This document shows positions 5,092-9,362 of a stretch of 64,000 nt of DNA, in pieces. The number at the start of each line of letters is the position of its first letter. Position 1 is the stretch's first letter. Position numbers and translations under genes: made by a program. Origin of the DNA: Desulfobotulus alkaliphilus (GTDB lineage: Bacteria; Desulfobacterota; Desulfobacteria; Desulfobacterales; ASO4-4); NCBI RefSeq assembly GCF_007830435.1, contig NZ_VLLC01000012.1:52118-116117 (forward strand). Direction: 5' to 3'. The notes under the pieces are model-generated. The model saw nothing but the letters and a program-made list of their open reading frames with translations. It did no database searches and had not been told where the DNA came from.

Positions 5092-5646
5092 TCAGAGAAC
5101 CTGCCGGATTTTATCTTTCTTATCCAGCGGCTGTTCATCCGCCGTCTTTTCATCTTGTTTTTCCTTTGGCTTTTCTTCCAGCAGCCCTTTCTCATCCTTT
5201 CTTTCCCGTGTACAGGTCACTTCGGCATTGAGAATACCACCGCTTTCCACCACAAGATCCTTGCAGGTCACAGTCCCCGCACACTTACCCGTGGCAAGAA
5301 TCACAACCCGCTCCCGGGCCTGTATATTTCCTTCAAAAACACCACCAATGGTCAGCTCTTCCACCGTTGCATCACAATAAACCCGACCTTCTTCGGCAAT
5401 AATAACGCTTGCTCCGGAAATGGTACCCTTGACCATCCCTTTAATCACCAGCCGCCCCTTTGCATTGAGAACGCCTTCCACACGAAGGTCACTGTCTATA
5501 ATTGATAAATTTTTTACCTTGCCCACCTGTGCTCTCCTTTGATTCCCTGCCAAAAGGGGTGTTACCGGGAAAAAAGTGTTCTCCTTTACTTCCCTTTGAT
5601 TCCGGCCCGTGCCCTTTGTAAACAAACGATACCACTTCTCTTTCAT
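5092..5646 (-). CDS. Bactofilin (CcmA/BacA family)
   Basis: A 184-residue bactofilin. The central region from about residue 45 to 140 is built of short beta-helix turns such as LRVEGVLNAKGRLVIKG, GRVYCDATVEEL, GVFEGNIQARERVVI and GKCAGTVTCKDLVVE, flanked by polar tails; the C-tail is Lys/Glu rich. Bactofilins polymerise without nucleotide into filaments beneath the inner membrane and recruit peptidoglycan-remodelling enzymes. I used the internal ATG at 5646 because GGAGGG precedes it. The three genes upstream encode probable wall-modifying partners, which supports a cell-shape role like that of CcmA in Helicobacter. Confidence 0.92.
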   Translation of the reverse strand: MKEKWYRLFTKGTGRNQREVKENTFFPVTPLLAGNQRRAQVGKVKNLSIIDSDLRVEGVLNAKGRLVIKGMVKGTISGASVIIAEEGRVYCDATVEELTIGGVFEGNIQARERVVILATGKCAGTVTCKDLVVESGGILNAEVTCTRERKDEKGLLEEKPKEKQDEKTADEQPLDKKDKIRQVL

Positions 5647-5753
5647 GGTGCCCTCCGTCATCGTCCCGCAACAGATTCCGAGTTGTCAGAATCCGGCACA
5701 AGGGCGACCAGATATCAAGATTACCGTTACTCCTGGTCCTAATATAAAAGGAC

Positions 5754-7277
5754 TCAAGGTTGCACAGCCTCCTGCCCGGATAACGTTTCTGAAACCAGAC
5801 GAATCCTGAAACCACCAATTTTCTCTCCCTTAAGGGATGTTTCTACCGGATAAATTTTTCCCTTGCGATCCTCGGAAAAACGGGGCCACAGATCCTTTGC
5901 CGTATCAATGGGATACCCCCGGTCCTCTCCTGTGTTCACATCTATATCGGGAGGTACAAAGCCCTTAAAATTAACCACAAGATCCGCAGGGTCAATGATA
6001 CCGGATGCTACCTGAACAATTTCAAAAACTGCACCATGGGGTACATCAAGAAGGATGCCATCCTCAATCCACAACGGATTTCCGTTGACACGGATCTCAT
6101 AAAAAAGACTTTCTCCCTCGGGCTTACGAACGGCATAGTCCTGCTGCACAGTTTTTTCTACTGGAACAACAGCCACAGAACCACAAGGCTGGTGATCCTT
6201 GAAAACACGGATCCGCACTGGTTTTTCAATCACAATAGCTTCACCCAGAAGATTTTTCCTGCAAGAACCGTCCATACGCAGGGAAAGTCCCCTGGAATAA
6301 TTTGCAACAATATGGGAAACACGAATCACAGCACCTGAAGGAACCTCAAGAATCTCATTTTTACCCACCACAACCGGCGCAGAACCTTCCCGTTGAATGA
6401 TCAGATAATCCAGCACCGGAGAATCCGTTCGCACAGAAGGGCACTCCGGTACAATACCCATATATTCCATAAAGGCATTAATTACATAAATATGGTGATT
6501 AATTTTATCTTCAAGGGCAAGGGACTTGCTGGTTTCCACACCAAAGGCCGGGATGCCATGCCGGGTCAGGGCATAAAATGTGGCTGAACTCCGCTGCTCC
6601 TTGTGGGGTGAATCCTCTTCAAGGGTCCGGTGATTATTAAAGTGAAAACGATGAAGATCATTGAAGATACGTGTATTAACTCGATCCAGAACATATCCTG
6701 CGATGGAAGCAAGATCCAGTGCTTCTCCGTTCTCGTTCCGGTAAATATCTGCATCTGCAATAAGCGATTGTCCATACCTCAGAGGATTCCGTTCCTGGGA
6801 AATCCACACCGGAGAATAAAAACCCGATCCATCGTGGAGGTTCAGGAGCAGATCACTTTCTCCCATCAGATTTTTTAATATTTTTGCAATTCTGATCTCA
6901 TAGGTATCACGACCTCCCGCTTTTCCAAAGGTGCGGTTCATGTCCATGTTAATTTGCCTGCGATACTCCATAATTGCGGGGAAATTAGCCCTTGGAATAA
7001 GAATCAGACGGCCTACTTCAAGGCTCATATCCGCATAATGGTCCGCAGCAAGAAAGGCTCCGGGCTCATCTCCCTGAATACCACCGATGATCATCAGGGT
7101 TTTGCCTTCTTTTTTTCCACAGATACGATAAACATCCAGAGGATGCTCCGTATCCTCAAACCAGCTCTGCAAACCACACTGGGCATACACAAGCGAAACC
7201 CCGAGGAAGGTGATCAGCAAGGCTAAGGCCAGCACATAGTTTCTAGGGGTTGTCCACAACTTCAAAATCTTCAACAT
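5754..7277 (-). CDS. M99/Csd4-like peptidoglycan DL-carboxypeptidase
   Basis: A 507-residue exported metallocarboxypeptidase. After a signal or anchor helix (residues about 12-32) the catalytic domain shows GGIQGDEPG with Q68 and E71, then MDMNRTF near 111-117, and LNLHDGSGFY with H148. This Gln-Glu-His zinc set, with Gln replacing the usual His, is characteristic of Helicobacter Csd4 and Campylobacter Pgp1. Those enzymes trim murein tripeptides to dipeptides and create helical shape. VETSKS later supplies a candidate general base. The C-terminal 200 residues form repeated beta domains. The start gives a membrane helix and overlaps the upstream gene by 35 bases, implying translational coupling. 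Confidence 0.85.
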   Translation of the reverse strand: MLKILKLWTTPRNYVLALALLITFLGVSLVYAQCGLQSWFEDTEHPLDVYRICGKKEGKTLMIIGGIQGDEPGAFLAADHYADMSLEVGRLILIPRANFPAIMEYRRQINMDMNRTFGKAGGRDTYEIRIAKILKNLMGESDLLLNLHDGSGFYSPVWISQERNPLRYGQSLIADADIYRNENGEALDLASIAGYVLDRVNTRIFNDLHRFHFNNHRTLEEDSPHKEQRSSATFYALTRHGIPAFGVETSKSLALEDKINHHIYVINAFMEYMGIVPECPSVRTDSPVLDYLIIQREGSAPVVVGKNEILEVPSGAVIRVSHIVANYSRGLSLRMDGSCRKNLLGEAIVIEKPVRIRVFKDHQPCGSVAVVPVEKTVQQDYAVRKPEGESLFYEIRVNGNPLWIEDGILLDVPHGAVFEIVQVASGIIDPADLVVNFKGFVPPDIDVNTGEDRGYPIDTAKDLWPRFSEDRKGKIYPVETSLKGEKIGGFRIRLVSETLSGQEAVQP

Positions 7278-8088
7278 GCAGCAAGGCTCCAGCTTCATTA
7301 AAAACAAAAATACGATTGGCCTGAAACAGATCAGGATCCAGATGCCCGAAACGAAGACGGACATCCTTAAAGTTCCGAATGGAAAAAAACTGCCCCCGCT
7401 GTGGATCCATGGGCCTGCCATTCTGCACCTCCATGGCAGGGGATGCAGGATAAAGGAAAGAAGGCTCCCTTGGTATCAGAACCGATACAATATAACCTGA
7501 AACAACGGCATCATTTCGGATATTCCGGATATTGAAAGAAGCCCCATAAGTTTCACCTCGGATACCTGCCCGGTAATTGTCAAGGGCCACCTTGGGAAAG
7601 GCAATATCCACCTCAGGAATGGGAGGAGCACCTGTAAGTTCCGGTGGCATTTTCTTCGGATACACCGGCTCAGGTTCTGCTGCGCCCTCCTGTCCAGAAG
7701 ACCTCCAGTCATTTCCCCAAGAACTCTCTGCTCCTGAATGGATTTCTGAGCTTTCCATAGCAATTTCAAGGGAAGCCACCCTTACCATCAAGCGATGATT
7801 TTCCCGCTGCAGTGCCTGAATTTCCTGCTCAAGACCTGCATAATAAACTGATTTTCCGCCAACATCCGGTTCCCATTTGAACAGATACCAGATCCCGGTG
7901 AGTATCAGCATCATCAAAAAAACAGAGCCGACAACCATGGCAAGTCCCCACCCAAGGTGCAGGCGCAGCACACGGCCCCGGCTTCCAACCAGAAGAAAAC
8001 TCCACTTTTCCCCTGGTGCATTGTCTATAGCCTGCTTCTTCGAATACTCGTTTTTTAACCTTCCCAAATCTCTCTGTAAATCTTCCAT
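7243..8088 (-). CDS. Single-pass membrane coiled-coil protein, candidate shape-complex scaffold
   Basis: A 281-residue protein with no enzyme motif. An N-terminal cytosolic part of about 45 residues precedes one transmembrane helix (about 47-69, WGLAMVVGSVFLMMLILTG). A short coiled coil follows (about 83-112, LEQEIQALQRENHRLMVRVASLE), then a Pro-rich linker and a C-terminal periplasmic beta-rich domain. The layout is suited to linking cytoplasmic bactofilin to periplasmic enzymes. The gene overlaps both neighbours by 34-35 bases, so the three proteins are probably made stoichiometrically. I do not recognise a named family; Helicobacter Csd5 occupies an analogous role but similarity is not claimed. 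GAGG precedes the ATG. Confidence 0.75.
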   Translation of the reverse strand: MEDLQRDLGRLKNEYSKKQAIDNAPGEKWSFLLVGSRGRVLRLHLGWGLAMVVGSVFLMMLILTGIWYLFKWEPDVGGKSVYYAGLEQEIQALQRENHRLMVRVASLEIAMESSEIHSGAESSWGNDWRSSGQEGAAEPEPVYPKKMPPELTGAPPIPEVDIAFPKVALDNYRAGIRGETYGASFNIRNIRNDAVVSGYIVSVLIPREPSFLYPASPAMEVQNGRPMDPQRGQFFSIRNFKDVRLRFGHLDPDLFQANRIFVFNEAGALLHVEDFEVVDNP

Positions 8089-9362
8089 CGCCCGTCCTCA
8101 CGTATCAGGTCAAGCCGCTTTCGGCCCCGGGTTGCAAACCCACTGGACTCGTAGTTCTGCACAAAGCGTACTTCTGCCCTTCCTGCTCCCCGCATGCGAA
8201 TATCCAGAGGTCCCTCCCGTTTTACACGGATATAATCATACTGACGGTTCAACCCCTCTTTATAACGAAGCCATGCCCTCCGGTTCCGGCCCTGGGAACG
8301 AAAACCTTCTGCATAAAATGCACCATAGGGTTCTATTTCCTGGCTGGACCATGCCTCAAGCCAGTCGTCCACCATGCGGGTAATGCGATCCTCAGCATTC
8401 CACTCCCTGCTAAACGTGTTCAGGCCTGCCATTAATGGCTTGCCCGCTGGCAGAAGAGACTCGGGTGGAGCCAGCCATGGATCCCCCACAATCCGCATAT
8501 TGCCGTAAGCATCGGGCTCCATGTAAAGAAGCCTTGTCCCCAGATTTTTACTCGACTCTCCGGCCCTTACCATAAAATCAAAAATTCCTGTCACACGGTC
8601 CCCGGTACGAAAAAGATCCAGATCCTTAATTTCAAACATCAAATCAATGTTCTCCGCCTCAAACTCACTCCTTAAAATCAGCCAGTCGGACCACCATGCT
8701 ATATCCGGAAGGAAATCAGCTGAATAAGCAGCAAGATAGGCATGATAAGATTCTGACCTGAGGGCATTTTTCCAGCCATGGATCAGCTTCTTTAAGTTTT
8801 CAACTGTCTTTTCCTGGGGGTACTCTCCTTGGAAACCAAGTTTTTCGACAATGATCATGGGAGTCCTGAGAAGCCTTATATCCCTTTTCATGGCGTCCAG
8901 ATTATGATTCTCAAGGGCCACACAACCATTGCTGTCCATGGGACGCAGGGCTTTGTTGGTTCCATGCAACCAGATGGCATTACCGGTTCTGCCCTCCCTC
9001 TGATCCATAAAATTTGGATAATCAATGGGAAAAGCGCCTGTTCCATAAATGGGTGCAAGAAAGCGTTCTTCATGCTCAGTCAGGAAAAAGTAAACGCCTC
9101 CGGGAGTTTTTCTGTCACCTTCCAGTCGTTTATCCCCTGCGACCTCTCCCGTGGAACAGGGGAAACTGTGCCTTTCATAGAAAAAACCATCATTATCTTT
9201 AGCGTAAACCCACAAGCGCTGCGTTGCCCTTTCAACCACAACAGCCGTAAAGGGACGGGACTCTGTATGGATAAAAACATCAGGAACCTGTACCTGAGCC
9301 AAAAGATTTCCAGCAAAAAAAACGGAACAGAAACCCAAAAAAAACGCCTTCACGTACCCCAT
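8055..9362 (-). CDS. YkuD-fold L,D-carboxypeptidase/transpeptidase with NTF2-like C-domain (Csd6/Pgp2-like)
   Basis: A 435-residue exported protein with a signal peptide ending near LLAQ. The L,D-transpeptidase (YkuD) domain spans about residues 35-175, with the catalytic histidine in WLHGTNKALR (H133) and cysteine in DSNGCVAL (C147). The C-terminal 100 residues (MVDDWLEAWSSQEIEPYGAFYAE onward, in part) are an NTF2-like domain ending in WKIYREIW. That domain order is the one known for Helicobacter Csd6 and Campylobacter Pgp2, which remove the terminal D-Ala of murein tetrapeptides. A transpeptidase activity remains possible. The start chosen gives a clean signal peptide; its ribosome-binding site is weak. 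Confidence 0.82.
   Translation of the reverse strand: MGYVKAFFLGFCSVFFAGNLLAQVQVPDVFIHTESRPFTAVVVERATQRLWVYAKDNDGFFYERHSFPCSTGEVAGDKRLEGDRKTPGGVYFFLTEHEERFLAPIYGTGAFPIDYPNFMDQREGRTGNAIWLHGTNKALRPMDSNGCVALENHNLDAMKRDIRLLRTPMIIVEKLGFQGEYPQEKTVENLKKLIHGWKNALRSESYHAYLAAYSADFLPDIAWWSDWLILRSEFEAENIDLMFEIKDLDLFRTGDRVTGIFDFMVRAGESSKNLGTRLLYMEPDAYGNMRIVGDPWLAPPESLLPAGKPLMAGLNTFSREWNAEDRITRMVDDWLEAWSSQEIEPYGAFYAEGFRSQGRNRRAWLRYKEGLNRQYDYIRVKREGPLDIRMRGAGRAEVRFVQNYESSGFATRGRKRLDLIREDGRWKIYREIWEG

Follow-up and report, generated by a model that had tools for sequence, protein, structure and literature searches.

How an internal filament directs periplasmic enzymes to the sites at which the cell wall is trimmed is a standing question in the field of bacterial cell shape. 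Here, we describe a locus that bears on this question, in a stretch of 64,000 nucleotides (nt) from Desulfobotulus alkaliphilus (contig NZ_VLLC01000012.1, positions 52,118 to 116,117; hereafter the window). Four minus-strand genes, read from position 9362 to 5092, form a cassette that encodes, in transcription order, a YkuD LD-carboxypeptidase-like protein (LDC, 435 amino acids, 8055..9362), a bitopic coiled-coil membrane protein (TMcc, 281 amino acids, 7243..8088), an M99 peptidase (M99, 507 amino acids, 5754..7277), and a bactofilin (189 amino acids, 5092..5661, with an alternative start at 5646). An earlier note on this DNA, made without database searches, had given the coordinates, strand, and gene order correctly. 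Our analysis indicates that the four genes probably encode a bactofilin-anchored peptidoglycan-trimming module, in which TMcc, a candidate bactofilin-enzyme adaptor, would dock LDC and M99 on the filament.

Profile and structure comparisons were used to identify the four proteins. By its sequence, the product of the fourth gene is without doubt a member of the bactofilin family: PF04519 was matched with 4.6e-21 (75.3 bits, cut-off 27.9), with the polymer domain at residues 53-148 (5218..5505), and Bactofilin A (PDB 2n3d) was matched with 1.6e-7. Bactofilins form polymers at the cytoplasmic surface of the cell membrane. M99 has a signal-like N-terminus and a catalytic domain (residues 56-275, 6453..7112) that matched Peptidase_M99 (PF17033) with 6e-34 and 118.2 bits (cut-off 27). 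The C-terminal immunoglobulin (Ig)-like domain Peptidase_M99_C (PF17129) scored 20.7 bits (5e-4), under the cut-off of 27. The Csd4 chains 4wck/4q6m were matched at 1.6e-28 to 2e-28, and residues Q68, E71, H148, R107, R115, and E248 of M99 align with Q46, E49, H128, R86, R94, and E222 of Csd4, which are reported to form the metal site, the general-base Glu, and the two substrate Arg (PMC4220969). None of the six varied among the 26 cassette proteins aligned, including that of the window; these were 26 of the 28 in all, with an interrupted one (L034) and one at a contig end (L048) left out. The Csd4-type Gln-Glu-His site (Q68, E71, H148) pointed out in the earlier note was thereby confirmed as that of an M99 family member with a Gln ligand. 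These comparisons strongly support the assignment of M99 as a peptidase of the Csd4/Pgp1 type, with the active-site residues of Csd4 intact.

LDC begins with a signal-like helix and matched YkuD (PF03734, 5.1e-14) as well as the NTF2-like family Cds6_C (PF24125, 1.7e-16, two matched stretches). Its best sequence match in the PDB was Bd1075 (7o21, 2.2e-37), which was also the top Foldseek match, followed by Csd6 and Pgp2. The catalytic domain comprises residues 40-158 (8889..9245), and the proposed catalytic pair H133 and C147 was kept in 40 of 41 relatives of more than 300 residues. In the structural model (mean predicted local distance difference test score, pLDDT, 89.1), two tandem NTF2-like domains follow the YkuD domain, one at residues 184-298 (8469..8813), recognised by its helix-helix-strand order, and one at residues 309-434 (8061..8438), seen in the Pfam match, the 7o21 alignment, and the model. 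Thus, the NTF2-like assignment made previously was right, and only the supposed single domain has to be replaced by two. The first domain was present in 41/41 relatives and the second in 35/41. Taken together, the matches strongly support a relationship of LDC to the LD-carboxypeptidases Csd6, Pgp2, and Bd1075. The bactofilin, M99, YkuD, and NTF2-like families named in the earlier note were all matched above cut-off.

The remaining protein, TMcc, had no Pfam or NCBIfam match above the curated cut-offs, 27 family members shared no recurring match to either collection, and a profile search of the PDB returned coiled-coil noise only. An AlphaFold2 model predicts a cytoplasmic beta-hairpin (residues 31-43, 7960..7998; strands 31-34 and 40-43), a membrane helix (residues 46-71, 7876..7953), which coincides with a hydrophobic stretch in the family alignment, a coiled-coil helix (residues 77-117, 7738..7860), a disordered linker, and a beta-sandwich (residues 167-276, 7261..7590) that is expected to be periplasmic. 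The sandwich, with a pLDDT mostly of at least 90, resembles Ig-like domains in structural alignment (VIA-align, best Z 10.7, rmsd 2.1, 98 aligned residues, 6d8g); Foldseek alone gave a weak result. The hairpin together with the helix appears weakly similar to the N-termini of LmdC-like M23 proteins: the hhalign probability was 58.4 compared with 0.3-3.4 for four controls, and when the hairpin columns were shuffled, 2 of 100 trials reached the score. The genome of the window encodes an LmdC-like M23 protein of its own (L097), the start of which is similar to TMcc and which had matches in 60/60 genomes searched, in some cases to the peptidase part only. An M23 domain was absent from the TMcc of the window in a Pfam scan and from the families listed for the 27 members. 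An SH3 family was likewise unmatched in both; its absence from the structure list is uninformative, and the model contains a larger beta-sandwich.

If TMcc connects filament and enzymes, how constant is its company? In the class set of 117 genomes, M99 occurred in 34, as a cassette type in 28 genomes (window included) and as a type closer to Csd4 at 8 loci in 8 genomes, with two genomes carrying both. TMcc lay upstream of the cassette-type M99 at 28/28 loci, LDC likewise lay upstream at 27/28 (none was found at L057), and a bactofilin followed downstream at 27/28 (L048 ends at the contig edge). In contrast, none of the 8 loci of the Csd4-closer type had a TMcc, LDC, or bactofilin partner, with one of them (L064) near a contig edge. 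The two types also differed in their profile E values within the same phylum (about 1e-27 to 1e-45 for the cassette type and about 1e-60 to 1e-91 for the other), and by this measure the cassette M99 is a distinct subtype. A scan of 197 genomes of the phylum, in which adjacency was scored by pairing match positions, gave the same contrast outside the order of the host: a TMcc match lay directly upstream of 19/28 cassette-type M99 genes compared with 0/9 of the Csd4-closer type. Moreover, in a set of named genomes (the best 80 of 538 matches), all four genes were present, in any order, at 41 of the 57 loci with enough flank, with the bactofilin upstream in 3 of the 41 (L154, L188, L209). A neighbourhood conserved in relatives, on which the earlier note had made its reading depend, was found in the class set, the phylum, and the named set.

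Smaller combinations point to TMcc and bactofilin as the core. Among the matches listed, 37 further bactofilin loci were picked (not included were other low-scoring ones, for example G041, G061, G074, G076, G092 C30, and G110). Eleven had the order LDC-TMcc-bactofilin, 18 had TMcc-bactofilin, 2 had LDC-bactofilin, and in 6 no partner of the bactofilin was found; TMcc thus adjoined the bactofilin in 29/37. TMcc-bactofilin is the commonest pair, and the enzymes are variable. Because the pair persists where the enzymes are absent, a link between TMcc and bactofilin is indirectly supported. In four genomes that have the three-gene form (G037, G052, G107, G115), an M99 of the Csd4-closer type is encoded at another place. 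At the opposite end of TMcc, two loci encode a YkuD-NTF2 protein that carries a TMcc-type Ig-like sandwich as a C-terminal fusion (L188:2991-4532 and L209:3540-5258), and in L209 a membrane-anchored TMcc follows the fusion gene. The proposal of the earlier note that the membrane protein physically links filament and enzymes is thus moderately supported, indirectly, by the LmdC-like hairpin, the pairing of TMcc with bactofilin without enzymes, and the two LDC-Ig fusions.

Several observations weigh against this interpretation. The confidence of the model is only moderate in the hairpin (pLDDT 66-68). The hairpin alone did not separate the M23 profile from a control (12.8 versus 11.6), and a longer TMcc N-terminus matched the MreC coiled coil at 81.8, which indicates that coiled coils inflate such profile scores. 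Outside the order of the host, 9/28 cassette-type M99 genes had no adjacent TMcc match, 6 named-set loci had LDC-M99 but no match to TMcc or bactofilin, and the bactofilins for which no partner was found make up 6 of the 37 picked loci. The named set is only the best 80 of 538 matches, and several of its contigs are identical to those of the other genome set. In addition, RuvB was encoded upstream in 27/28 four-gene loci, and part of the synteny is therefore plain vertical inheritance. Nevertheless, 10 of the 18 named-set loci that lacked an upstream RuvB carried all four genes, so the ruvCAB neighbourhood is not the sole cause of the grouping. Finally, M99 and bactofilin share one frame of 728 amino acids in a metagenome-assembled genome (MAG) titled Olavius algarvensis Delta 4 endosymbiont (L049:8732-10918, plus strand; L152 is the same contig). 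This frame may be a fusion, a lost stop codon, or an assembly error. If it is one protein, its bactofilin part would be periplasmic; alternatively, the bactofilin could have a start of its own at an in-frame GTG after AAGGAAGAGAT.

Comparison with characterised systems helps to define what may be new. Bd1075 of Bdellovibrio bacteriovorus is reported to be a YkuD LD-carboxypeptidase that acts as a curvature enzyme, with its NTF2 domain and W303, termed Bdellovibrio-specific, placing it on the convex face by a route reported as unknown (PMC8938487). The earlier note envisaged a compact curvature module outside Campylobacterota; with Bd1075, a YkuD-NTF2 enzyme of curvature already has a precedent there. 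LDC shares with Bd1075 the YkuD domain, the C-terminal NTF2-like fold, and a counterpart of the Trp: W433 was aligned opposite W303, which was equated with chain position 298 because the numbering of the catalytic His is shifted by +5. Among the 35 proteins with a second NTF2-like domain, this position was Trp in 29, Phe in 3, Ser in 2, and a gap in 1. Judging from this alignment, the restriction of a W303-type Trp to Bdellovibrio is not borne out, being contradicted by W433 in LDC proteins of Desulfobacterota. In contrast to LDC with its two NTF2-like domains, Bd1075 has one, and the portion of its description available to us does not mention bactofilin, TMcc, or M99 partners.

With Csd6/Pgp2 and Csd4/Pgp1, the cassette has in common the enzyme families, the active-site residues, and the implied order from tetra- to tri- to dipeptide. 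The genes csd4, csd6, and ccmA are scattered in the genomes of Helicobacter and Campylobacter, whereas here the genes of both enzymes stand beside those of a bactofilin and TMcc. Pgp1 is reported to depend on Pgp2 for its substrate. Still, the cassette is not simply the Helicobacter set assembled in one unit, as had been suggested: the partners reported for CcmA are Csd5, Csd7, MurF, and, indirectly, the M23 peptidase Csd1. An M23 enzyme is missing from the cassette, and TMcc gave no SH3 match of the Csd5 type. The bactofilin gene of Campylobacter is reported to overlap an M23 gene.

Two bitopic bactofilin partners have been described. The BacA-LmdC module of Rhodospirillum rubrum is encoded by overlapping genes and is reported to control curvature, and the cytoplasmic hairpin of LmdC, located before the membrane helix, is reported to be required for bactofilin binding (PMC10945521). 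By its model, in which the hairpin is of moderate confidence, TMcc may resemble LmdC in being bitopic, in its coiled coil, and in a cytoplasmic hairpin before the membrane helix; overlapping genes are a further point in common. It differs in its modelled Ig-like end and the lack of an M23 peptidase match, and the cassette enzymes are encoded apart from it and belong to other families. The Helicobacter pylori protein Csd5, reported to occur in that genus only, is bitopic, binds CcmA, and is reported to interact with Csd4. Like Csd5, TMcc is predicted to be bitopic, with a short cytoplasmic tail (which in Csd5 binds bactofilin) and a periplasmic beta domain; unlike Csd5, which has an SH3 domain, it has a modelled Ig-like sandwich and a coiled coil. 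Keyword searches of the open-licence PMC literature found no paper describing the cassette arrangement or TMcc. Each enzyme family, bactofilin-hydrolase operons, and, twice, a bitopic bactofilin partner are already known; judging from these searches, the combination and TMcc appear to be new.

On this basis, the following mechanism can be proposed. The bactofilin filament would line the cytoplasmic membrane from inside the cell and be bound by the N-terminal tail and hairpin of TMcc. After a single membrane crossing, the periplasmic Ig-like domain of TMcc would gather LDC and perhaps M99. LDC, to judge from its family and conserved residues, would cut off the terminal D-alanine and convert tetrapeptides to tripeptides, and M99 would then remove meso-diaminopimelic acid to yield dipeptides, with LDC feeding M99 as Pgp2 feeds Pgp1. 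One-sided trimming would lower later crosslinking on that side, and the cell could bend.

The enzyme families and the gene order would fit equally well with a recycling or quality-control operon, in which stem peptides are trimmed wall-wide and the bactofilin only positions the enzymes, for example at poles or septum, without bending. The surroundings of the cassette, with tol-pal and ruvCAB genes and the recurrent RuvB, form a general envelope and housekeeping context, and reports link bactofilins not only to curvature but also to the formation of stalks. However, the characterised enzymes Csd4/Pgp1, Csd6/Pgp2, and Bd1075 are reported to be cell-shape determinants, and the asymmetric localisation of Bd1075 is reported to need the NTF2 domain with the Trp that most LDC proteins have kept. 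We therefore regard a recycling operon as rather unlikely.

The gene overlaps bear on a further alternative. Two overlaps join the first three genes, 34 nt in two frames between LDC and TMcc (8055..8088) and 35 nt between TMcc and M99 (7243..7277, given an M99 start at 7277), as the earlier note had seen; the bactofilin gene, in turn, overlaps none and starts 92 nt past the M99 stop. Among relatives, the LDC/TMcc overlap measured 34-43 nt in 33/39 loci, and the TMcc/M99 overlap was variable. The overlap DNA of the window encodes the end of the C-terminal motif of LDC and the TMcc start MEDLQRDL. In 36 sequences, the entropies of the three LDC codon positions were 0.25, 0.59, and 0.99 bits in the overlap compared with 0.99, 0.92, and 1.59 bits upstream. 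Because all three positions vary less in the overlap, both LDC and TMcc appear to be constrained there. A simple bactofilin-binding motif at the TMcc start (MEDLSRNL) was considered and rejected: in most loci its DNA doubles as the LDC C-terminus, with both frames constrained, and without LDC alongside it was absent from L111, L112, L119, L121, L123, L130, and L135 and present in L106, L117, L118, and L126. It is improbable that the neighbourhood alone is conserved and that TMcc serves an unrelated partner without coupling filament and enzymes: the RuvB synteny and the sharing of the conserved TMcc start with the doubly constrained LDC C-terminus fit such a reading, but the TMcc-bactofilin pair is kept across differing compositions and contexts, and the LDC-Ig fusions and the differing company of the two types of M99 speak against it.

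Returning to the anchored trimming module, we tentatively extend it one step further. TMcc might found a family of bactofilin adaptors, in which an LmdC-like hairpin reads the filament and an Ig-like dock takes either LDC alone or the LDC-M99 line. A single operon would then amount to a self-sufficient and transplantable machine for curvature across Desulfobacterota, with traces in MAGs labelled Nitrospirae and Latescibacterota.

The surroundings of the cassette and some variants at other loci were also recorded. Upstream, after 415 nt, lie genes reading as ruvB, ruvA, and ruvC, and downstream lies a convergent gene for a CYTH-domain protein. Scans for promoters and terminators yielded fewer sites (3 and 6) than were found on average in shuffled sequences (5.9 and 7.2, respectively). 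In genome-wide profile searches, the host had a single match each for bactofilin, M99, and Cds6_C. In L108, L111, L115, L127, L130, and L137, ruvB and the module are separated by a gene for an S-adenosylmethionine hydroxide adenosyltransferase. In L101, L114, L116, and L134, the second NTF2-like domain is missing from LDC, and the overlap with TMcc is also lost; the DNA after LDC in L101 resembles, by eye and in another frame, a remnant of that domain. A YkuD-NTF2 protein with both catalytic residues, His and Cys, replaced adjoins ruvB in L138 (4070-5431), where no bactofilin or TMcc was found. Frames broken into two pieces were seen for M99 in L034, LDC in L053, TMcc in L054, and the Csd4-closer M99 in L066 (in-frame TGA). 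Two bactofilins precede TMcc-M99 in L194 and L218, both titled Nitrospirae; of two loci titled Latescibacterota, L161 has M99-bactofilin on a short contig and L219 has LDC-TMcc-M99.

In several genomes, bactofilins of a second, higher-scoring class are encoded on the strand of MreC, at a distance of about 4 kb (e.g., G015 C100, G041 C11, G007 C12, G031 C1, G016 C25, and G001 C32); none was found in the genome of the window. An M23 peptidase beside these bactofilins was looked for at 30 loci without a match at E 1e-8 within 1.5 kb on either side, a weak negative given the short flank and a query set from the own genome that held only two of its four M23 hits. In L105, a bactofilin gene comes after genes of the PBP2 and RodA types.

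Should TMcc prove to be the connector, both trimming enzymes would be tied to a bactofilin by an operon of four genes. A nameless protein family would thereby gain its first function, and the literature on bactofilin modules would be joined with that on carboxypeptidases as shape enzymes.

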